From NCBI GenBank assembly GCA_025054835.1, contig JANWZQ010000141.1, forward strand, positions 1 to 64,000: 64,000 nt of DNA, read 5' to 3'. Origin of the DNA: Chthonomonadaceae bacterium (GTDB taxonomy: Bacteria; Armatimonadota; Chthonomonadetes; Chthonomonadales; Chthonomonadaceae). How positions within the stretch are numbered: position 1 is the first letter of the stretch; the number at the start of each line of letters is the position of its first letter. Positions 27,559-38,823 of this stretch are shown piece after piece. Position numbers and translations under genes: made by a program. Below the pieces are notes generated by a model. The model did no database searches and was not told where the DNA came from. It saw only the letters and a list, made by a program, of their open reading frames with translations.

Positions 27559-28620
27559 TCATGCTCCGGGTTGCACACCGGTCGGGATATCGCCTCTGTG
27601 CTCTGCCTGCTCCCGCAGCAGGTGGTACGCCACAGCCCACGAGCGCTCCACCAGAAAGCGTGCGAAGGGCACTTCGGACACGGGTTTATCTTCGGCAAGT
27701 TGCCCCGCATGGTAGAGTGCCATGCGTGCCGCCTCCCTCTCCGAACGGCGTTGCAGAATATCGGCAGTCTCCTCCAGACGGCGTACATAGAGGCGACGCA
27801 CCGGAGCCGGCAACAGCCCTTCTGTCGCCTCCGCGAGCGATCGGGCCCTGCGCTCAGCCCTGGCGCTCTCGGGCAACTCGATCGGGCTCTGCATCGCCTG
27901 AACGTACCGGTACAACCAGGGGATCACTTCATTGACGTCCAGAAACCAGTTCTCGAACCAGACCGTTGCGAAGAGCTTTTCCGGATCATGCGGAACCGTC
28001 GGATCTGACAGTACTTCTTCCGGGGAGAGATGCGCGTAAACCGCGGGGCGTTCGTACTCCTGGCGGGGCATCCCGATGAGCGGCAGCAGATCCAGAAAGC
28101 CGGCGGGCGTCATGGTACCATCGCGCTGATGAATGGCGCGCGCCTCTGCCAGCAGGAAACGGCCGTAGTCGGGCTCGATCTCCGCGATTGCTAGCCCCCG
28201 CTCCATGCCACGTTCCATATCGGAGATGCGCGCCTCGATCTGACGGCGTGGCACGCGTTGTCCGCCGTAATCCCGTATTCCTCGCGCATCGTTGATCAGG
28301 ATATGACTGAGCAGGGGATTGCCCCCGTCCGGTTGCGGGATCAGAAAGATGAGCAGGCGGTTGCCCGCCCCATCGAATGCAGAGGCAAAAGCGCGCAACG
28401 CATCCGCAGGCGCCTGCAACACCGTGGTTGGCGCCACGGGTTCCGAACGCTCTACTGGCAGGATATGTTTCTGGCTGAGCAGGTACAGAGCGCGTTTCGC
28501 CGCTTTACGCCGCTCGCGATCCGGCGCCATCTCAGCAATGTCCCTCAACTGCGTCGCGGCCTCCGGGGTCGCCTGATGTAGCAGGTCTGCAATGTCCGCA
28601 GGGGGATTCCACCCGGCCAT
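27559..28620 (-). CDS. Conserved-looking soluble protein of unknown function
   Basis: 353 residues, largely helical and charged, without signal peptide or membrane segment. I recognise no catalytic motif. The first 60 residues (ATPEAATQLRDIAEMAPDRERRKAAKRALYLL) resemble a HEAT-like or armadillo helical pair. A beta-rich middle follows (NRLLIFLIPQPDGGNPLLSHILIND), and the end is again helical. It lies 33 bp after the Ser/Thr kinase in the same operon, so it may be a substrate or partner of that pathway; this is inference from position only. Confidence 0.75.
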   Translation of the reverse strand: MAGWNPPADIADLLHQATPEAATQLRDIAEMAPDRERRKAAKRALYLLSQKHILPVERSEPVAPTTVLQAPADALRAFASAFDGAGNRLLIFLIPQPDGGNPLLSHILINDARGIRDYGGQRVPRRQIEARISDMERGMERGLAIAEIEPDYGRFLLAEARAIHQRDGTMTPAGFLDLLPLIGMPRQEYERPAVYAHLSPEEVLSDPTVPHDPEKLFATVWFENWFLDVNEVIPWLYRYVQAMQSPIELPESARAERRARSLAEATEGLLPAPVRRLYVRRLEETADILQRRSEREAARMALYHAGQLAEDKPVSEVPFARFLVERSWAVAYHLLREQAEHRGDIPTGVQPGA

Positions 28621-28653: not shown

Positions 28654-30594
28654 TCAGTCGCTCCACTGAGGCGGCCCGGACTCTGTCTGTGCGAGCCGAT
28701 TGTTCGCCTCGTCGCGCATCGCCGTCCCGGCCCCCTCGCGTACTGCGTCGCGCCACTTTGCCCGGGCCTGCTCCACGTCTCCCCTCCGGTACAGAGCATC
28801 CCCTTCTGCAATCAACTGTTGCGCTCTCTGCATCCGCTCCGTGAGAAAAGCGTCCGGGTCAGCCGGTACAGACTCCATGCCGTCCGCGCTAGCAGCAACC
28901 GTATCCAGCTCCGCCGGTGTTCCGGTTCCCCCGAGTCCACTGCGAGCCAGTTCCCGCTCGGAGCGCGCTTCGTCGCCCCGTCCCATCCGCTCCAGAACGG
29001 CTGCCAGTCCCTCGCGCGCGAGACGGTTGTACGCGTCCACTTCCAGAGCCGCGCGGTAGGCGGCCTCCGCGTCCTGCCAGCGCCCTTCGCTCTCCGCCAC
29101 CCGTGCCAGTTGTACGTAGGCAGACACCAGATTGAAGCGGATAGTCTGCCGCTCTCTGGCAGAAGGGTTCTGCGCCAGAGCCTGTTCGAACAGACGCACT
29201 GCCTCCACGTACCGGCGCGCGTTGTACTCCTGTACTCCCTGATTGATCAGGCTGACAGCCTGCTGTACCGAGGACTGCTGCAGATGGATCTGATACGCCC
29301 GCAAAAAACCGATTACGATACCGGCCAGACCGATTCCCAGCAGAATTGCCAGGCCAATTGCTATCAGAGTTGTCCGTTGCGCGGGGGTAATCCGGATCAC
29401 CGGCCAGGAAGCCCACGGATCTCGTGACGTGGCCCATGCAGGAACCTGCCCGCCGGAAGAAGCGGGCACCCCTGCAGGCGTTTGCAGGGGTGCCCCGGCC
29501 ACCGGTGCCATGGCTGTGGGCGGAACCCCGGCAGAAGCTGCCCCCGGAGTGTTCCACGGCCATGGCTGTCCCAGAGGATGAGGATACGGGGGCGCTACAG
29601 GGAGCGATGGCGCACACCCCATCCCCGGTGAGCCATACGGTGCGACCGGGTAAGCACCTCCCCCGGCCGGATACGGATTAGGATAGGGAGCAGGAGGCGA
29701 TATGGACGCCCAGGGCCCGCTCACGCCTCCCCCATACCCCGATCCGGACACATTGGCCGCAGGAAGGTAGGTCACCGGTGCGCGCTCCGCACGTTGCAAC
29801 GCATTCCGCATTTCCTCTGCGGTTTCCGGGCGCCCTGAGGGATCCTTGCAGAGCGCCCGCCGGATCACCTGCTCCACAGCCGCAGGGATCCCGCTCATGG
29901 GCGGGGGATCGAAGTGCATGATCGCGTACGTGATGCTGATCACGCTATCGCCCGTGAAGGGCCGGCGCCCGGTGAGCATCTCGTACAGGACGACGCCCAC
30001 GGAGAAGAGGTCGGAGCGATGGTCGATCTCCCGCCCGATAACTTGCTCCGGAGACATGTAGCTTGGCGTACCGAAGATCTGCCCATCATTTGTTAACGCA
30101 GGTTGATCGGTCAGGCGGGCGATACCGAAGTCTGTGAGCTTTACCTGCCCGCCCGGCAGGATGTGAATATTGTCGGGCTTGATATCCCGATGAACAACGC
30201 CCCGTTCGTGCGCAAACGCCAGCGCATCCAGTACCTGATAGGCAATATTCAGGGCTTCCTGTAGAGAGAGTACTCTCTGCGTCTGCAGGTGGTCACGCAG
30301 GTTCTGGCCCTCCAGGTACTCCATGACGATGAAGTGCCGCCCGTTCTCCTCGCCATACTCGTAAATGGAGACGATATTGCGATGCCGGAGCCGTCTGGTG
30401 GCCTCCGCCTCTCGCCGAAACCGTTCGACACGCTCGCTGCGCAGCTGCCCGGTCATGCCCGGAGCGATGTTGAGCTCCTTGATGGCGACCCGACGCCCGC
30501 AGGTCACATCCTCCGCTTCGTAGACGATGTCGTTGCTGCGCGCGATCTCGCGTATGATCCGGTATTTCCCTCTGAGGGTCTCCACCAAGGCCAT
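28654..30594 (-). CDS. Membrane Ser/Thr protein kinase with C-terminal TPR region
   Basis: Hanks-type kinase of 646 residues from ATG 30594 (GTG 30603 is an alternative). The kinase domain spans about 10-270: Lys39 in RRVAIKE, HRDIKPDN at 135-142, DFG at 155-157, and GTPSYMSPEQ. The glycine-rich loop is replaced by IREIARSNDIVYEA, lacking GxGxxG. A linker rich in Pro, Gly, Ala and Tyr (272-408) precedes one membrane helix (409-431). The remainder is TPR-like (INQGVQEYNARRYVEAVRLFEQAL and two further repeats). It follows the PP2C phosphatase closely, implying antagonistic control of shared substrates. Confidence 0.93.
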   Translation of the reverse strand: MALVETLRGKYRIIREIARSNDIVYEAEDVTCGRRVAIKELNIAPGMTGQLRSERVERFRREAEATRRLRHRNIVSIYEYGEENGRHFIVMEYLEGQNLRDHLQTQRVLSLQEALNIAYQVLDALAFAHERGVVHRDIKPDNIHILPGGQVKLTDFGIARLTDQPALTNDGQIFGTPSYMSPEQVIGREIDHRSDLFSVGVVLYEMLTGRRPFTGDSVISITYAIMHFDPPPMSGIPAAVEQVIRRALCKDPSGRPETAEEMRNALQRAERAPVTYLPAANVSGSGYGGGVSGPWASISPPAPYPNPYPAGGGAYPVAPYGSPGMGCAPSLPVAPPYPHPLGQPWPWNTPGAASAGVPPTAMAPVAGAPLQTPAGVPASSGGQVPAWATSRDPWASWPVIRITPAQRTTLIAIGLAILLGIGLAGIVIGFLRAYQIHLQQSSVQQAVSLINQGVQEYNARRYVEAVRLFEQALAQNPSARERQTIRFNLVSAYVQLARVAESEGRWQDAEAAYRAALEVDAYNRLAREGLAAVLERMGRGDEARSERELARSGLGGTGTPAELDTVAASADGMESVPADPDAFLTERMQRAQQLIAEGDALYRRGDVEQARAKWRDAVREGAGTAMRDEANNRLAQTESGPPQWSD

Positions 30595-30640
30595 CGTCTC
30601 CACGCAGCGGTGCCCGGTACGTCACGCAACCGTCACCCCA

Positions 30641-31660
30641 TCACCGACCGAACAGCCATCGCCACCCGGAACGCGGGGAGCTCTGCGCGCCGTTGTCACT
30701 GCCAGCCCGTGTCACAGGGTCACCTGTGTCACGAACATACCCTGCAGTTTCTGTGCCGGCTCCCGGCACGGCTGGCGTTTCTGCGTATGCGTAGAAATCG
30801 CGCACAGCGATCACGAACACCGTGATGTTATCGCGCCCGCCACGCCCGTTAGCCAGTTCTATCAGCTGTCTGGCAGCCTCAGAAGGCGCATGGCGCGAGG
30901 CGACCTGCAGGATCTCGCTCTCCTCCACATGTCCGGTCAGTCCATCGGTGCAGAGTACCCAGATGTCGCCCGGGCAACATGTCTCCGTGAACAGGTCCGG
31001 CTGCACCGCAGGCGCAGCGCCAATGGAGCGCGTGATCACATTGCGGAAGGGCGACATCTCGGCCTCGGCACGCGAGAGCAGGCCAGCACGCACCTGCTCT
31101 TCCACCCACGAGTGGTCCTGCGTGATCTGCCGGATAGCGCCTCCGCGTATCAGATACGCCCGGCTGTCGCCCAGTTGCGCCACCACAACCCGGTCTTCCA
31201 CAAAGATTGCGGCGGTCAGAGTGGTGCCCATGCCATTACGCTCCGGGATCATCTGCGCCAGCGTGTAGATCCGATCGTTGGCTTCGGCAATCGCGTCCCG
31301 CAGGGCAATCTCCAGATCCGGTGATGGATGATCGTAGTAGGCCGTGATGAGGGTCTTGAGCATGAGTTCACTGGCAATCTGACCGGCGAGCGCCCCTCCT
31401 ACACCGTCCGCCACAGCGAACAGACTCCCCCGGGCCGCCAGAATGGCCGGCACCTCTGGCTCATAGTAGTCGAACTTATCCTCGTTGTTCTCGCGCAACT
31501 GCCCCATATCGGTCTTGGCCGCGTACTTCAACAACGGCACCACGCGGGGCATGCGTTGCTCATATTCCCGCCATCCGCGCACCAGCTCATCGCGATGGAA
31601 ACGGGCGGTTGCCTCCGGGTCTTCTTGCGTGTCCGTACAGGGGGGATTGAGATCGCTCAT
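30641..31660 (-). CDS. PP2C-family Ser/Thr protein phosphatase
   Basis: 339 residues. Mn/Mg-dependent phosphatase with RENNED at 56-61, FAVADGVGG (Asp85-Gly86), MGTTLTAAIF, AQLGDSRAYLIR, LCTDGLTGHV and GRDNITVFV, all the metal-site motifs expected. A 45-residue N-terminal extension and a low-complexity C-terminal tail flank the domain; no membrane helix. ATG is preceded by GAGGAAA. It sits between the FHA/zinc-ribbon gene and the kinase and probably reverses kinase action on the FHA ligands. Confidence 0.94.
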   Translation of the reverse strand: MSDLNPPCTDTQEDPEATARFHRDELVRGWREYEQRMPRVVPLLKYAAKTDMGQLRENNEDKFDYYEPEVPAILAARGSLFAVADGVGGALAGQIASELMLKTLITAYYDHPSPDLEIALRDAIAEANDRIYTLAQMIPERNGMGTTLTAAIFVEDRVVVAQLGDSRAYLIRGGAIRQITQDHSWVEEQVRAGLLSRAEAEMSPFRNVITRSIGAAPAVQPDLFTETCCPGDIWVLCTDGLTGHVEESEILQVASRHAPSEAARQLIELANGRGGRDNITVFVIAVRDFYAYAETPAVPGAGTETAGYVRDTGDPVTRAGSDNGAQSSPRSGWRWLFGR

Positions 31661-31696: not shown

Positions 31697-32887
31697 CTAC
31701 GGCTCGGGGTGGATCCAACCGGAATCGTCGGTCTCTGCTTCTGCCCGGGCCCTGTCATCAGGGACCTCCGTGCCTGCAGTTGTAGCAGGCGTGGAGTAGT
31801 CGGTCGGGGGGAACAGGTCCACCAGGACCTGTTCTGTGACCATCTGTGCGGTTTGCTCCGACAGGGTTTGCAGCGGTGCTGCCGGAAACAACGGTTCTTC
31901 GATCAACTCGAACAGGTACGTGTTCATTCCCAGTTGTATCTCATCGCCTGCAAGCAACAGGCGACGCTCATGGGGCGGGATCTTCTGCCCGTTGATCACT
32001 GTTCCGTTGGTACTGCCGATGTCGGTCAGGTACGTTCCCGTGTTATCCGTTGTGATCTCCGCATGTCGCCCGGAGACATAGTTGTCTGGGATAACCAGAT
32101 CGTTCTCTGGCCTGCGCCCCACACGCAACGTGCCCGGGCGCAGCAGCAGGTCCTTGCCGGTTCCTCTGACCACCCGGAGCCGGGCCACAGCACCTGCAGC
32201 GCCTGCACCACTGGACGACGTCAGCGTTCCTGCCACGACCGTTCGGGTAGCGCCAGGGGAGCGCGCCTCTTCTACAGGAGCCATCAACGTGGCTTCCGTC
32301 GCGGCAGGCATGCGCGTCGGCCCGGCATCCCCGGCACCGGCGATCTCCAACATCACACGCCAGTTGCCAAACTTGAGGGGGGTGCCGTGTGTGGCCGGGG
32401 TCGGCTGGTTCGGCCCGATGCGCCGATCTCCCACTTTGGTGCCGTTGCTGCTGCCCAGATCCTCCACGATCACCTGGCCATTTTCGACCGTCAGGCGGGC
32501 GTGCATGCGCGAGACTGTGCCGTCCATCACCAGTACGTCGGCGCCCTGTCGCCCCAGCGTGTTGACCCCCGGGCGCAGGCGATAGCGTCGTCCGTTCAGG
32601 ACGTCGACCAGCTCGGCTACTGGCTCCTGCTCCACGGGAGCCTGAATGTTCTCTGCCGGGGTTGAGGCGAGCAGAAAACCGCACTCACCACAGTACGTCT
32701 CGCCGATGGGTGTGGTGGAGTGGCACACCGGGCACGTCGCCATCCCCCCGATCTGTGTGCGTGCGGGATCCACTCCGATCCCTCCTGCAGGCATCTGCTG
32801 CGTCACGCCGGCTCCCGGCACGGTCGGCGTCGCGAGCACGGTCTGATCCGGCACACCCATCATTCTGGTCTGATCTGTGTCGCTCAT
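31697..32887 (-). CDS. Zinc-ribbon protein with two FHA domains
   Basis: 396 residues from ATG 32887 (GGAG upstream). The tail 1-50 is disordered and carries DPARTQIGGMA at 40-50. A zinc ribbon has Cys52, 55, 66 and 69. FHA domain a spans about 95-180 (GR at 112-113, SRMH at 126-129, SSNGT at 146-150) and domain b about 233-328 (GR at 257-258, SGRH at 272-275, STNGT at 292-296); both are canonical phospho-Thr binders. The linker contains more Thr-rich segments such as GATRTVVAG. Probably an adaptor in the kinase pathway. It lies 13 bp after the VWA gene. Confidence 0.9.
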   Translation of the reverse strand: MSDTDQTRMMGVPDQTVLATPTVPGAGVTQQMPAGGIGVDPARTQIGGMATCPVCHSTTPIGETYCGECGFLLASTPAENIQAPVEQEPVAELVDVLNGRRYRLRPGVNTLGRQGADVLVMDGTVSRMHARLTVENGQVIVEDLGSSNGTKVGDRRIGPNQPTPATHGTPLKFGNWRVMLEIAGAGDAGPTRMPAATEATLMAPVEEARSPGATRTVVAGTLTSSSGAGAAGAVARLRVVRGTGKDLLLRPGTLRVGRRPENDLVIPDNYVSGRHAEITTDNTGTYLTDIGSTNGTVINGQKIPPHERRLLLAGDEIQLGMNTYLFELIEEPLFPAAPLQTLSEQTAQMVTEQVLVDLFPPTDYSTPATTAGTEVPDDRARAEAETDDSGWIHPEP

Positions 32888-32900
32888 CCGCTTCTTGCTC

Positions 32901-34271
32901 CTACTGACGCCTGCCCTGATCGAGATTGTAGATGGTGCCGATGATGGTTTTCTCGACATCCGCTCCCTGCTGGAGGGCCTGCATGGCCGCATCGACTTCC
33001 TGCACCTGCTGTAGCTGCCCGGCGTTCAGGAGAATGGTGCGGGTCTTTTGAAGTTCTGCCAGTGCGCCCATAGCAGTCATCTGCTGGGTACGCATGCCCA
33101 TCATGGTGCGTTGCAGGTTCTGCGAGGCCATCGCGATCTCCAGCTCGTTGCGCACGATCGGGTTCACGTGAGCCGCAATCCGGCTCCGATCCACGGTGAA
33201 CTCAAACACACAATCGGCCGCCGCATGTTCTGGTCGGTTGTTCACAACGTCATCATAGGCTACTTCTACTCTGGCCACCCGGTAAATTCCTGCCGGGTGC
33301 CGATCAAATTCCAGTTCCGCCAGCGCGGTACGACTGGTGCCGCGCTCGATATCCGGCAGGGTGACCTCAACAGCGCGCCCCTGGAAGGAAGGTTGCATGC
33401 CATAGATCTGCCGCAGTTGCACCCATTTCGATAGCAGGAAGCGCACGCGCACGTTCTTGGCCACGATGGTCATCAGCGCCTGCAACTCCCGGCGAAACAC
33501 TTCGGGCAACAGATCGGGGCGCTGGATGTAGTAGTAATTGCCCCCGGATCGGCGCGCGATCCCTGCCATCAGCTCCTCGTTGTACTCGCTGCCGAAGCCC
33601 AGCGCAGTGATAGAGATCCCGCGCTGTTTCTGTTCTGCCACCTGCTGCACAATGGAGTTGTAGTCTCTCAGTCCAGCAGTCGGCTCGCCGTCCGTAAGCA
33701 GCAGGACCCGGTTCACGTACCCTGCGGTCTGGGGCATCACCGAGGCGATCTGCATGCAGGCAGCCATCATGCCATCGTAGAGATTGGTGGTGTTGCCCAC
33801 CTGAAGCCGGTGGATGTGTTCCTTGACCAGCGCCTTGTTGACTACCCGGCGCGCCGGCATCAGCACGTCGACCTGCTCCTCGAAGGTCACGATGGACAGG
33901 ATATCGTTGGGCTCCAGCAGGTCCACCACGTAGTCGCAGGCGCGCTTGACGTACTCCAGAGGCTCGCCCTCCATACTGCCGGAGCGGTCGATGCACAGGC
34001 AGATGTTCAGAGGGGCGCGTCGCCCCGGTTGCTGCCCTGTAGCCTTCACGACGACCAGCGCATGCTCCCGGGCCAGTTCGCCGGCAAGGACGTACTGATT
34101 TCCGGAAAGACACTCCACCTCGAGTGTGCGGGCCGCCATGCCGATCACTGTGCGCCCGGGGTCCATCCCCGGCACCCCCATTGGCGTAGGCGCGCCCGTC
34201 AGTACCGTCGGTTGCGCGCCCGCAGGAGCCGGTGGAACAAACTGTCCTGCTATCTGCGTGCGGTCTTCCAT
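32901..34271 (-). CDS. VWA-domain protein with Thr-motif N-terminal tail
   Basis: 456 residues from ATG 34271, preceded by the strong site GAGGAGGTGAGAGGG. The N-terminal tail contains two related motifs, EDRTQIAGQ (2-10) and DPGRTVIGMAA (37-47). The von Willebrand A domain begins near 86 with the MIDAS DRSGSM (95-100), the later Thr of NTTNLYDG and Asp of LLTDGEPTAG. A beta-sandwich-like region and C-terminal helices follow. No signal peptide or membrane helix. VWA, PP2C and kinase together recall the TerY-P triad described in tellurium-resistance systems, though no Ter genes are seen here. Confidence 0.9.
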   Translation of the reverse strand: MEDRTQIAGQFVPPAPAGAQPTVLTGAPTPMGVPGMDPGRTVIGMAARTLEVECLSGNQYVLAGELAREHALVVVKATGQQPGRRAPLNICLCIDRSGSMEGEPLEYVKRACDYVVDLLEPNDILSIVTFEEQVDVLMPARRVVNKALVKEHIHRLQVGNTTNLYDGMMAACMQIASVMPQTAGYVNRVLLLTDGEPTAGLRDYNSIVQQVAEQKQRGISITALGFGSEYNEELMAGIARRSGGNYYYIQRPDLLPEVFRRELQALMTIVAKNVRVRFLLSKWVQLRQIYGMQPSFQGRAVEVTLPDIERGTSRTALAELEFDRHPAGIYRVARVEVAYDDVVNNRPEHAAADCVFEFTVDRSRIAAHVNPIVRNELEIAMASQNLQRTMMGMRTQQMTAMGALAELQKTRTILLNAGQLQQVQEVDAAMQALQQGADVEKTIIGTIYNLDQGRRQ

Positions 34272-34371: not shown

Positions 34372-35859
34372 TCACTCGAATCGGAACTTGCTTGCCCCGA
34401 ATTGCACCAGATCTCCCGGTGCAAGGACCTGCATGGCAATCCGCATACCGTTGACAAAAGTCCCGTTAGCAGAGCCATTATCGTACAGGACGAAACGCCC
34501 CTGCTCATTGACCAGACGAGCGTGATTGCGCGACACCGTGGTGTCCGCAGAAAGCACGATGTCCTTATCCGGTTCACGCCCCAGAAACGTTACCGGATTG
34601 TTCAGCAGGAACACCTGTCCGGCATAGGGGCCCTCCACTCCTACAAGGCGCGGCATCGTTGTACCTCCTGCTGCCGCAACATCCTGCCCGCCGGGCATTG
34701 GATGCCGGGGCGCTCCTGTATAAGCCTCGAGGCCGGGTTGTGACCATCCAGGCCCCCACCCGGGAGATCCGACAACGGAGCACTGGCAGTGACCGGCAGC
34801 ATCTTTCGGAGCACCACAGAAGGGACACAGATGGGCGGGCATGGGTACGCCGGAGGGAACTGGCGGCTGACTTCTGGGAGCGTCTACCGGGTCCCGGGCA
34901 AAGCGGGCAGCAGTCGCTTTCTCACGAAACAGAATGCGGTGCGTGCCAATCTGGATCATGTCGCCGTCCCGCAGCAGCAACTCACCTCCCGGGGGCACCC
35001 GTTGACCGTTGACCAGCGTGCCCACAGGCGTTCCGGCGTCCATCAACACGTGCCGATTGTCATCGGCGCGGATCGCGGCATGCTGCGGCGCGACGTTCAT
35101 GTCGCCATACAGTGGCACCTCACAGCGTTCGTCACGCCCCAGTATATTCATCGGGCGCGACAGAATGAAATCCTTACCTTCGTTCCGGCCGACCAGTACG
35201 CGCACCCAGGCCTGCTTCATCCACTCTTCCACCAGGCCGATGAAGAAGCCGGTCAATCCCCCGATGGCCGTGAAGCCCACCATGCGGCTCTGCCCACCCA
35301 CGTCGCGCAGGCCGGGCTCCCCGAGCGCCTGATGCACCGGGTTCATGGTGATTGCCAGAATGTCGAAGACAAACCCGCCCAGAAAACCACCGAGGAAACC
35401 GCCCAGTGCCCCGTGCCAGATACGCCGGGGCGACAGCGTCGCCAGCGAGGCCCCTACCCCGAGCCCGGCTCCCAGACCCGCCCAGCCAAAAGAGCGCGCG
35501 ATGACCTGTCTGGCGAACCCGAAAAGCCCCTCGCCAGACATGCTGTCAGCACGTCCCCCGAGCGCATTGAAGATAGCGTTTCCGAAGAAGAAGCCAATCA
35601 ACCCGAACAGGATCCCTCCGAACAGACCGACCAGCAGGCCACGCGCCAGCTTCCGGGTGTTGCCCTCCACGATCCCGTCCACTGCACCCAGCCACAGTCC
35701 AATCAGGCCGCCTACACACAATACCAGTATGCGTGTGGCATACGCCGGCATATCCTGTTCCAGGAACGCGTTGTAGTCGAGCAGGTTCTCCTGTAGCAAC
35801 CAGCCCAGAAACCCACCTGCCGATCCGCAGATCAGGCCGACCAGAATACGCGATCTCAC
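34372..35859 (-). CDS. Multi-pass membrane protein with two cytoplasmic FHA domains and zinc knuckle
   Basis: 495 residues from GTG 35859 (GGGAGG upstream; GTG 35871 is possible). The first 210 residues form several membrane segments rich in glycine-zipper repeats (GGFLGGFLGGF at 153-163). FHA domain a (219-311) keeps GR241-242 but has APQH for SRxH and TPVGT for SSNGT, so it probably does not bind phospho-Thr. A Cys cluster (345, 348, 358, 360) follows. FHA domain b (403-494) is canonical: GR 427-428, SRNH 443-446, SANGT 463-467. It is 34 bp after the preceding FHA gene and likely anchors the signalling complex at the membrane. Confidence 0.88.
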   Translation of the reverse strand: MRSRILVGLICGSAGGFLGWLLQENLLDYNAFLEQDMPAYATRILVLCVGGLIGLWLGAVDGIVEGNTRKLARGLLVGLFGGILFGLIGFFFGNAIFNALGGRADSMSGEGLFGFARQVIARSFGWAGLGAGLGVGASLATLSPRRIWHGALGGFLGGFLGGFVFDILAITMNPVHQALGEPGLRDVGGQSRMVGFTAIGGLTGFFIGLVEEWMKQAWVRVLVGRNEGKDFILSRPMNILGRDERCEVPLYGDMNVAPQHAAIRADDNRHVLMDAGTPVGTLVNGQRVPPGGELLLRDGDMIQIGTHRILFREKATAARFARDPVDAPRSQPPVPSGVPMPAHLCPFCGAPKDAAGHCQCSVVGSPGWGPGWSQPGLEAYTGAPRHPMPGGQDVAAAGGTTMPRLVGVEGPYAGQVFLLNNPVTFLGREPDKDIVLSADTTVSRNHARLVNEQGRFVLYDNGSANGTFVNGMRIAMQVLAPGDLVQFGASKFRFE

Positions 35860-35893
35860 GATGCCTCCCACCCCACAAACGCCTGTTGCCGGC

Positions 35894-37243
35894 TCAGGCC
35901 TCGAATCGGAAACGGGTGTTGCCCACTGTCAGCTCATCACCGGGGCGCAACGGCTGCGGCGTCTGCTGCACGATCCGCACCCCGTTCACGAAGGTACCGT
36001 TGGAGGAACCGACATCCACCAGCAGGTACTGCCCGTCGACAACCTGTATGGTGGCGTGCCTCCGGGAAGCATTGGCGTCCTGTGTCAGAGCAATTGCGTT
36101 GGATGGATCCCGCCCGATGTCCACGCTACTACCGGTCAACGGGAAGATCTGCCCGGAGTAGATCCCTGCAGTTCCAATCAGGCGTGGCCCTGCGTTGCCC
36201 GTCCCGGAGACCGGGAGCACACTGCCAGAGGGAGCCGCACTGGCAAACGGGTCTGCTGTTCCTTCGGTAATGGGTGGTACAGGCACACGCTCCACCTGTG
36301 CGAACGGACCGGGCGCAGGCTGCGTTGCCGGAACCGGAGCAGCAACCTGAATGCCCAGCTTCTCGAGCACTGTTTTCAGCTTGCCGCTCTGGTACGCCCG
36401 GTAGATGCCATAACTGCAGGCGGCCAGGAAAGCCAGGCTGATCAGCGTGCTTCCGATCCCTCCACCGGCCGCAGGCTCCGCGGAACCCGATCCACGTTCT
36501 GACGCGGAAGCCCCTACTGGCGGCAGTGTGGCAGGTGGATCCAGTGTGGCGTTCGCATCGGCACCTGTTCGCACCTCTTTCCAGTCAACTTCGATGGTCT
36601 GCCACACGTGATTGTCCCGGGTCAGAGTCTGTCCGATGCTCTTCTCCGGGTAGGCACCGAAACGCACTGTCGCCGTCAACGGGGCCCCGAGTGGCACGTT
36701 CTCAAACCGGGCGACACCGTTGTCTGTCGGGCTCAACAGGCGCGTCTGCCGGAACTTTCCATCTTTGCTCTCCAGGACCACCAGTGCCCCCACAACGGGT
36801 TTACCTGCGGACCTCACAGGCACGTGCACGGACTGCGCAACGGTGAAACTGCTCTCCATGAGGCGCAGTTCCGCGCCGGCTCTGACAGGCAGGCGAGCGA
36901 GGTTGCCCCTGTCCACATCGATTACTTCCAGCGTGGTCTCCGCAGGGCGATATCCTGCCGGAACGTTCAACGGAACTGGCCCCGGAGCTGTCCCCCCATC
37001 GCCTGCTGGCGCAGGGAGAGGAGCTGGCGGCGTCGCCATGCCAGAGGCGGACACAAAGCGGTACAACAGGTCGCCCGACACTTCCCTGCGTAGCTGCACA
37101 ATCCTGTTCGTGCTGCCCCCGGCAGCTCTGTCCGCCGCCTGCGCCGGAACCGGTTTCTGCGCCTGAGTCCACGTTACCGGAAGGCACAGCATCCCCATCA
37201 CCAGAGCGCAGCATACGCCCGTTTCTTGCGTGCGCTTACTCAT
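35894..37243 (-). CDS. Exported-sensor-like transmembrane protein with cytoplasmic FHA domain
   Basis: 449 residues from ATG 37243, overlapping the nnrD stop. A signal-peptide-like N-terminus (to about 29) is followed by a 230-residue domain with beta-rich, Ig-like features (KPVVGALVVLESKDGKFRQ), one membrane helix at 263-283, and a canonical C-terminal FHA domain (353-448; GR 377-378, SRRH 393-396, SSNGT 413-417). This topology places the N-terminal domain outside and the phospho-Thr binder inside, so it may link an external signal to the kinase. The ligand is unknown. Confidence 0.87.
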   Translation of the reverse strand: MSKRTQETGVCCALVMGMLCLPVTWTQAQKPVPAQAADRAAGGSTNRIVQLRREVSGDLLYRFVSASGMATPPAPLPAPAGDGGTAPGPVPLNVPAGYRPAETTLEVIDVDRGNLARLPVRAGAELRLMESSFTVAQSVHVPVRSAGKPVVGALVVLESKDGKFRQTRLLSPTDNGVARFENVPLGAPLTATVRFGAYPEKSIGQTLTRDNHVWQTIEVDWKEVRTGADANATLDPPATLPPVGASASERGSGSAEPAAGGGIGSTLISLAFLAACSYGIYRAYQSGKLKTVLEKLGIQVAAPVPATQPAPGPFAQVERVPVPPITEGTADPFASAAPSGSVLPVSGTGNAGPRLIGTAGIYSGQIFPLTGSSVDIGRDPSNAIALTQDANASRRHATIQVVDGQYLLVDVGSSNGTFVNGVRIVQQTPQPLRPGDELTVGNTRFRFEA

Positions 37244-38823
37244 TCTGCGGATCCCTCCAGGCACCGCAGCGCTTCTGGCAGGCAGGCGACGATGTCCCCG
37301 GCGACGAGAGGCATCTCGCCCTGTTGCCGGGCCGCGATATCGCCGGCCATACCATGCACCATCACGGCCATCTCCACGATCTGACGCACCTGCGCCTCTT
37401 GCAGCGCAGCATCCGCTGCAAACGCCTGCGCCAGCAATCCCCCGATCACTCCTGTCAGCACATCCCCGGAGCCTCCTGTCGCCATGCCAGGGTTGCCCGT
37501 TGTGTTGATGCCCACGTGTCCCTCGGGATCCGCAACCAGCGTGCGACATCCCTTCAGAACGACGCAGGCGTGGTACTGCTCCGCCAGACGCTGTGCCGAC
37601 TCCACACGGTTCGACTGCACCTGCGCGATGGACGTTCCCAGCAGTCGGGCTGCTTCGCCCGGATGCGGGGTCAATACCAGCGCAGGCAACCCGCGCTCCT
37701 GACGGCGCCGCGCCACCTCCGGATGCCCGGCCAGTGCGTTCAGACCGTCCGCGTCCATCACCAGAGGGCGGGCGATCTCCTCCACCACTCTCAGGATCAG
37801 CGGCGCAACCTGCGGCGCGTTCGTCAGGCCCGGTCCTGCACACAGAACGGCGGTGCGCGCAGCAAACTGCGCAATGGCATCGAATGCGCCCTCTGCAACG
37901 GCTCCATCGGCGTCCGGCAGGGCCAGAGTCATCGCCTCATTCACCTTTGCGGCGACAATCGGTTGCACGCAGGCAGGCGTCAACACGGTCACCAGTCCTG
38001 CACCGGCGCGTTGTGCCACCTGCGCTACCATCGCCGCTGCGCCAACCATTCCCTGTGATCCAGCCAGGATCCCGACGTGCCCGTAGTCCCCTTTGTGCGT
38101 GTCTGGCCGTCGCTTCGGGAGCACGGCGCGATACGCTTCCGGACGTATCCAGTGGTAAGGCGTTTCCAGTGCGAGGCGTTCCCACGGGAAGCCAATATCG
38201 GCCACATACAGTTTCCCTGTGTGCTCCGCGCCGGGGAACAGTAACAGGCCGAGCTTGGGCGCACCGAAGGTGACTGTGAAGGCGGCCCGTACCGCTTCCC
38301 CGGGAATGGCTCCCGTGTCGGCATCCACACCGGAGGGCACGTCCACAGCAACCACGGAAGCCCGAGCGCACCGATTGACCGCAGCGATGACCCTGTCGTA
38401 CGGGGCGCGGGGCGCGGCCCTCAGGCCGGTGCCCAGCAGAGCGTCCACCAGAATATCGGCGTGTTCCAGTACCCCCGTTTCCAATACTCTTTCTGCAGGA
38501 GAGGGATCCAGACCGATACGACAGAGAAGGTTATGGTTCACCCGTGCATCTCCCCGGATCGTCTCGGGATTGCCGGCCAGCGCCACCAGCACATCGGCCC
38601 CCCGTAGCGCGAGATGGCGCGCGATCACGAACCCATCGCCTCCGTTGTTGCCGGTGCCACAGAGAACAACAATCCGCCGCCCCCGGAGAGTGCCATGCTC
38701 TCGTTGCATGTGCTCCACGACCGCGCGCCCGGCATTCTCCATCAGAACTACCCCGGGAATGCCAGACGCCTCGATGGCCATTCGGTCCATCTCTCGCATC
38801 GTTTCCGCCGTCACGACCCTCAA
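37240..38823 (-). CDS. nnrD: Bifunctional NAD(P)H-hydrate epimerase / ADP-dependent dehydratase
   Basis: Repairs damaged NAD(P)H hydrates; 527 residues, the usual length of the fused enzyme. The N-terminal epimerase (YjeF_N, 1-215) has LCGTGNNGGDGFVIARHLA; the C-terminal kinase-fold dehydratase has GDYGHVGILAGSQGM, DADGLNAL, LTPHPGEAARLL and GNPGMATGGSGDVLTG. The start is TTG 38823, with GGAGGGG 7 nt upstream. It heads the signalling operon from its own promoter, an odd metabolic leader for a kinase locus. Confidence 0.94.
   Translation of the reverse strand: MRVVTAETMREMDRMAIEASGIPGVVLMENAGRAVVEHMQREHGTLRGRRIVVLCGTGNNGGDGFVIARHLALRGADVLVALAGNPETIRGDARVNHNLLCRIGLDPSPAERVLETGVLEHADILVDALLGTGLRAAPRAPYDRVIAAVNRCARASVVAVDVPSGVDADTGAIPGEAVRAAFTVTFGAPKLGLLLFPGAEHTGKLYVADIGFPWERLALETPYHWIRPEAYRAVLPKRRPDTHKGDYGHVGILAGSQGMVGAAAMVAQVAQRAGAGLVTVLTPACVQPIVAAKVNEAMTLALPDADGAVAEGAFDAIAQFAARTAVLCAGPGLTNAPQVAPLILRVVEEIARPLVMDADGLNALAGHPEVARRRQERGLPALVLTPHPGEAARLLGTSIAQVQSNRVESAQRLAEQYHACVVLKGCRTLVADPEGHVGINTTGNPGMATGGSGDVLTGVIGGLLAQAFAADAALQEAQVRQIVEMAVMVHGMAGDIAARQQGEMPLVAGDIVACLPEALRCLEGSAE

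Follow-up and report, generated by a model that had tools for sequence, protein, structure and literature searches.

Threonine-motif arrays in the disordered tails of an ArnB-like and ArnA-like protein pair of Armatimonadota: a candidate phosphothreonine switch

The window analysed here is a 64,000-nucleotide stretch of DNA from a Chthonomonadaceae bacterium (Armatimonadota; assembly GCA_025054835.1, contig JANWZQ010000141.1, positions 1–64,000). It carries a minus-strand operon with the gene order sigma factor, YjeF, an FHA protein with a transmembrane (TM) segment, a membrane protein with two FHA domains, a VWA protein, a zinc-ribbon and two-FHA protein that we term FHA-ZnR, a PP2C phosphatase, a kinase and a 353-residue protein; this order was kept across related loci. 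Our subject is the adjacent VWA (P0001) and FHA-ZnR (P0002) pair, whose N-terminal tails share short Thr motifs that may be phosphorylated and then read by FHA domains. Features of the pair are:

32901..34271, minus strand: VWA protein, ArnB-like, 456 residues (disordered tail, split beta-sandwich, vWA, C-terminal helix bundle)
34128..34271, minus strand: disordered N-terminal tail of the VWA protein, residues 1–48, based on predicted local distance difference test (pLDDT) and motif counts
33471..34010, minus strand: vWA domain with intact metal ion-dependent adhesion site (MIDAS; DRSGSM, residues 95–100); Pfam VWA, E 9.1e-21
32916..33161, minus strand: C-terminal four-helix bundle, residues 371–452, counterpart of the phosphorylated RHB domain of ArnB
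31697..32887, minus strand: FHA-ZnR, ArnA-like, 396 residues (Thr-motif tail, zinc ribbon, two FHA domains)
32681..32734, minus strand: zinc ribbon CxxC...CxxCG, residues 52–69; four Cys invariant
32342..32617, minus strand: FHA domain 1; phosphothreonine (pThr)-site residues R113, S126 and N148 invariant
31904..32185, minus strand: FHA domain 2; pThr-site residues R258 and S272 invariant, N294 nearly so

The AlphaFold2 model of the VWA protein (mean pLDDT 89.6) comprises the split beta-sandwich, vWA domain and C-terminal helix bundle, and on this model the protein is of the ArnB three-domain type. Its top Foldseek match was ArnB in the ArnAB complex (8s05_A, E 2.2e-25, TM-score 0.78 on target), followed by a Catenulispora vWA protein and an ArnB paralogue. 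ArnB 8s05_A was also matched by phmmer over residues 56–405 (E 6.7e-12) and by profile (E 1.8e-23); the Pfam ArnB C-terminal family was not among the matches listed for the VWA protein. D95, S97, S99, T162 and D194 were invariant in the family alignment. FHA-ZnR has the layout of ArnA, an N-terminal zinc ribbon followed by an FHA domain with pThr-binding residues, encoded beside a vWA partner, but ArnA has a single FHA domain and FHA-ZnR has two. Many family members matched zinc-ribbon or RanBP-type Pfam models, with Zn_ribbon_RanBP matching weakly in 12 of 39; a zinc-ribbon profile search of the PDB did not recover the ArnA finger (8s05 chain C). The FHA-ZnR model matched 6hc1 (DgcB), as well as 3unn and 3uot, which by their PDB titles we take to be MDC1, a human FHA protein, with a phosphorylated Thr4 peptide from its own N-terminus, possibly an analogous case.

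Both N-terminal tails were predicted disordered (pLDDT below 50 at VWA residues 1–22, 25–27 and 29–33) and the remainder of both models was well folded; the motifs precede the folded domains, as a first-pass annotation of this DNA had proposed. The three sites it named (DPGRTVIGMAA and the EDRTQIA start in the VWA protein, DPARTQIGGMA in FHA-ZnR), were all present by translation; the Thr it numbered 43 in the FHA protein is Thr44. Codons of the central Thr residues are:

34257..34259, minus strand: Thr5 of the VWA protein, start-site motif EDRTQIA (MEDRTQIAGQ...); Thr in 33 of the 36 homologues with a letter here
34206..34208, minus strand: Thr22 of the VWA protein, PTVLTG; Thr in 33 of 38
34149..34151, minus strand: Thr41 of the VWA protein, DPGRTVIG (DPGRTVIGMAA, residues 37–47); Thr in 35 of 40
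32867..32869, minus strand: Thr7 of FHA-ZnR, start-site motif DQTRMM (DQTRMMG)
32756..32758, minus strand: Thr44 of FHA-ZnR, DPARTQIG (DPARTQIGGMA, residues 40–50); Thr in 46 of 48 distinct homologues

The FHA-ZnR tail has further motifs at Thr16 (DQTVLAT) and Thr29 (VTQQM).

We compared about 70 related loci, gathered via two routes. Tails of both families carried arrays of 1–6 short Thr motifs, whose copy number, position and flanks varied widely while the Thr stayed constant. Homologue start codons were set by a Shine-Dalgarno rule that was blind to the Thr motif, and which clipped a few tails (L043, L044, L113 and L138). Motifs were counted in nonredundant tails (56 VWA and 40 FHA-ZnR), and the counts were compared with those in 500 shuffled versions of these sequences. 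The broad form T[QRVAML][MILV] occurred 140 times in VWA tails against 24.9 ± 4.8 in shuffles (maximum 42), and 82 times in FHA-ZnR tails against 15.1 ± 3.5 (maximum 26). Counts of the strict form [RKA]TQ[MIL][GAV] were 28 and 25, against 0.2 and 0.1. Enrichment was therefore about 5-fold for the broad form and more than 100-fold for the strict form. It was also confined to the tails: broad-motif density per 100 residues was 5.0 and 5.3 there, 1.30 and 0.67 over what remains of the two proteins, and 0.3–0.8 in other operon proteins, while strict-form density was 1.0–1.5 in tails and practically zero elsewhere.

The motif was specific for Thr. A Ser version was found 4 (VWA) and 3 (FHA-ZnR) times in tails, where 8.3 and 7.0 would be expected. 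The residue before Q[MIL] was Thr in 92 of 109 cases and never Ser; after DPx[RKAM] it was Thr in 60 of 66, again with no Ser. Thr without Ser in this slot is what would be expected if the readers were FHA domains, which prefer pThr over pSer (PMC6509490).

Further components that could write, read and erase such marks are encoded in the same operon:

28654..30603, minus strand: PknB-like Ser/Thr kinase (Hanks-type); Pfam Pkinase, E 1.3e-51; C-terminal tetratricopeptide repeats
30641..31660, minus strand: PP2C phosphatase, Stp1/IreP type; NF033484, 238.8 bits, cut-off 230
34372..35871, minus strand: membrane protein with two FHA domains, the first degenerate, the second canonical
35894..37213, minus strand: signal/TM protein with a canonical FHA domain at its C-terminus

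Inspection of the kinase translation predicted one TM segment. In the first FHA domain of the two-FHA membrane protein (34945–35145), APQH and TPVGT replace the pThr-binding SRxH and SxNGT; because it lacks those residues, this domain is probably not a pThr reader. That gives the operon four canonical FHA domains beside the kinase and phosphatase.

The closest known system is archaeal. Within the archaellum regulatory network of Sulfolobus, several Thr residues in the C-terminal bundle of ArnB are phosphorylated by the kinase ArnC, and the FHA domain of ArnA then locks on (PMC12852372, PMC6509490), binding multiply phosphorylated ArnB (PMC12852372). Like ArnA-ArnB-ArnC/PP2A, the set described here has an adjacent three-domain vWA protein and zinc-ribbon/FHA protein under a Hanks-type kinase. 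Unlike ArnAB, it is bacterial, has its kinase and a PP2C rather than PP2A in the operon, includes extra membrane FHA proteins, and has no archaellum.

Taking together the motif enrichment, its Thr specificity and tail confinement, the predicted disorder of the tails, the modelled ArnB fold, the canonical FHA sites and the gene association, we think it probable, with moderate confidence, that the two neighbours make up a bacterial ArnB-ArnA-like pair and that their disordered N-terminal tails serve as multi-site pThr arrays, marked by the operon kinase, docked by FHA domains and reset by PP2C. The Hanks-type kinase would phosphorylate Thr in D/E-x-T-Q/R-I/M-I/M (start) and DPx[RK]T[QV]MG (internal) sequences. 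FHA domains of FHA-ZnR would dock on these pThr sites, either in cis in the manner of OdhI or in trans by binding the VWA tail; both membrane FHA proteins perhaps also bind the pThr tails. PP2C would remove the marks. Through graded phosphorylation the pair would move between an open form and one locked by FHA domains, and would be anchored to the membrane FHA proteins. Phosphorylation, kinase identity, FHA docking and output are all steps that we infer from comparison of sequences and models. To our knowledge few ligands have been identified for bacterial FHA domains, and the biology of Armatimonadota has hardly been studied; here comparative genomics alone reveals a sequence code (start DRTQII, internal DPxRTQMG) tied phylum-wide to one kinase/phosphatase/FHA gene set. 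If the reading is true, the archaeal ArnAB switch has a counterpart in bacteria that bears additional N-terminal Thr arrays and offers directly testable substrates and ligands.

The sites fall into two classes. Start sites lie within the first ten residues and follow [DE]-[RK/x]-T-[QR]-[IMV]-[IMVL]; of 58 VWA tails, 47 had an acidic residue at -2 and 44 a hydrophobic one at +3, and the start sites of FHA-ZnR were alike but less strict (+3 ILVMF in 21 of 38). Internal sites follow D-P-[NM]-[RK]-T-[QVA]-M-G, with a basic residue at -1, and include the DPGRTVIG and DPARTQIG of the window. The tails of OdhI, GarA and DgcB, which bind their own FHA domains, are acidic at -2 and hydrophobic at +2/+3 (PMC6733907, PMC2784874). 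Start sites mostly obey this rule, and internal DPxRTxMG sites do not. The proposal of the first-pass annotation, that the motif is a plausible kinase site and FHA ligand, fared well for the start sites, with canonical FHA domains, a Hanks-type kinase and PP2C adjoining, and less well for DPxRTxIG with its Gly at +3; the latter may chiefly be a kinase site, or may be read otherwise than the N-terminal DRTQII-type site.

Several observations weigh against the pThr-array reading. FHA ligands usually use a hydrophobic residue at +3, whereas internal sites mostly have Gly there (74 of 143 internal VWA sites). Internal sites share the Thr, the +2 Met and an acidic residue with the start sites but not the +3 hydrophobic residue, so their recognition by FHA domains is less sure, and FHA reading of the DPxRTxMG class is the weakest step of the scheme. 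The homologues are phylogenetically related, so the counts above are not independent and are descriptive. A few operonic loci (L129 and L064) lack the VWA-tail motif, L064 having no recognisable VWA tail. Finally, the mapped pThr sites of ArnB are in its C-terminal bundle, whereas the arrays here are N-terminal and on both partners; the VWA family also keeps Thr389, Thr395, Thr410, Thr442 and Thr446 in the matching bundle, so candidate ArnB-type sites may exist beside the tails.

One alternative is that the kinase alone reads the motif, the tails being phospho-acceptor sites that alter charge or order, or ribbon docking on the VWA protein, with no FHA recognition of internal sites. The +3 Gly and basic -1 of the internal class would fit this, as would the placement of Thr44, which was invariant in a 39-member alignment, equal in this to the zinc Cys and FHA residues, and preceded the first Cys of the zinc ribbon by exactly 8 residues in 46 of 48 distinct homologues; the zinc finger of ArnAB is a loose, phosphorylation-independent dock (PMC12852372). 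Yet the slot excludes Ser, which a kinase alone would not usually require, and several canonical FHA domains are conserved alongside; we consider this alternative unlikely. The spacing of Thr44 from the ribbon, which may indicate a structural role, would also suit an unphosphorylated short linear docking peptide, for example an extended beta-strand or MIDAS ligand, acting between the partners or toward another protein. Q and M around the Thr are strongly fixed, and the MIDAS of vWA domains binds peptide ligands (PMC6509490), but copy number and position vary within a disordered tail, Ser does not replace Thr, and kinase, PP2C and FHA domains are always nearby, making a docking peptide distinctly improbable.

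Spread of the motif was surveyed by DNA-pattern scans. The form DPx[RK]TQ[MI]G (DNA pattern Dxx[RK/x]TQ[MI]G) was confined to these two genes in 31 genomes, with one occurrence in the window's own genome. Among 61 genomes, M[ED]D[RK/x]TQ started only the VWA protein, setting aside two stray MxDxTQ matches (L199 and L200) that proved to be internal Met/Thr in unrelated frames. Fimbriimonadia have the set in two places, FHA1-FHA2-VWA forming one locus while FHA-ZnR lies at a separate one, with PP2C after it in five of six cases; both tails of these unlinked genes still carry DPN[RK]T arrays. Conservation of the motif, a point on which the first-pass annotation had staked its proposal, was therefore borne out, being phylum-wide, Thr-specific and limited to two families. 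Its suggested restriction to the operon held for the two proteins and not for the operon itself, because the Fimbriimonadia FHA gene lies elsewhere and keeps the motif.

Between copies within one tail, the Thr codon was the same in 26% of comparisons, where the codon usage of the gene itself would predict 33%. Repeat expansion or gene conversion between neighbours, which the tandem look of some tails (such as the four DPN[KR]TQ units of L066) might suggest, is refuted as a general explanation by these codons and by the unlinked genes, and with counts so far above shuffles we regard a low-complexity or DNA-repeat artefact as highly implausible. Selection instead appears to act on the peptide in the VWA and FHA-ZnR proteins, judging from the arrays in unlinked genes and from Thr codons not shared beyond chance. 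The two tails within a genome were more alike (0.453) than permuted pairs (0.375 ± 0.014), a comparison confounded with phylogeny. When the VWA family was compared by profile with P0002, the tails alone aligned, and weakly (probability 6). Three tail-less VWA relatives (L134–L136, 28–32% identity) lie outside such an operon.

A broader form of the pThr-array reading is a phylum-wide bacterial ArnAB-like switch, in which pThr arrays of variable number sit on both partners, the kinase/PP2C balance would determine the valency of their contacts with several cytosolic and membrane FHA domains, Thr44 would gate docking of the ribbon on the VWA protein, and the whole would be a multivalent scaffold as opposed to a switch with one site. 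We offer this tentatively, as a possibility.

Single-site systems resemble parts of this arrangement. OdhI and GarA of Actinobacteria carry a single short cluster of tail sites and a single FHA domain, without zinc ribbon, vWA partner or arrays. In DgcB of Bdellovibrio, an FHA-GGDEF protein, the tail LEK-pT-SIV (Glu at -2, hydrophobic at +2/+3) is bound by its own FHA domain (PMC6733907); unlike FHA-ZnR, DgcB has a single site and a GGDEF output. The TerY-P triad and related gene sets of the Aravind group bring together vWA, PP2C and kinase genes, sometimes including a zinc ribbon, and our locus groups these three genes likewise; linkage of vWA, PP2C and kinase is described in PMC7159879. The vWA of TerY stands alone, whereas ours has the ArnB three-domain fold along with FHA partners and Thr arrays. 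We set the TerY-P lead aside, as the fold search gave ArnB and there was no TerY-specific family match. Our literature search found nothing relevant on Armatimonadota FHA proteins and no paper on this gene set; although the ArnAB switch is known, as are FHA tails with a single site, we found no description of a bacterial ArnAB-like pair in which each partner has an N-terminal Thr array and the operon supplies kinase and phosphatase.

Other features of the pair and its neighbours were noted. The linker between the FHA domains of FHA-ZnR (32185–32330) contains GPTRMP, EATLMA and ATRTVVAG, and the L040 linker is alike (NERTMMT, QDRTMMA). A DnaJ-like J-domain is fused N-terminal to the FHA-ZnR Thr-motif tail at L063, L064, L065, L073, L109, L114, L120 and L129, representing several deeper lineages (Pfam DnaJ E 5e-13 in the best scanned member). 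L129 (genome G087) still groups the VWA, FHA-ZnR, PP2C and kinase genes, but the motif is gone from its VWA tail and its zinc ribbon is broken, possibly a joint loss. A defence-system role was dropped because the PADLOC matches were to generic kinase models. The 353-residue protein after the kinase (27559–28620) matched no Pfam or NCBIfam family, and its gene is kept in a few Chthonomonadales loci. In much of the phylum, the YjeF NAD(P)H-hydrate repair gene (37240–38823) precedes the FHA/VWA genes.
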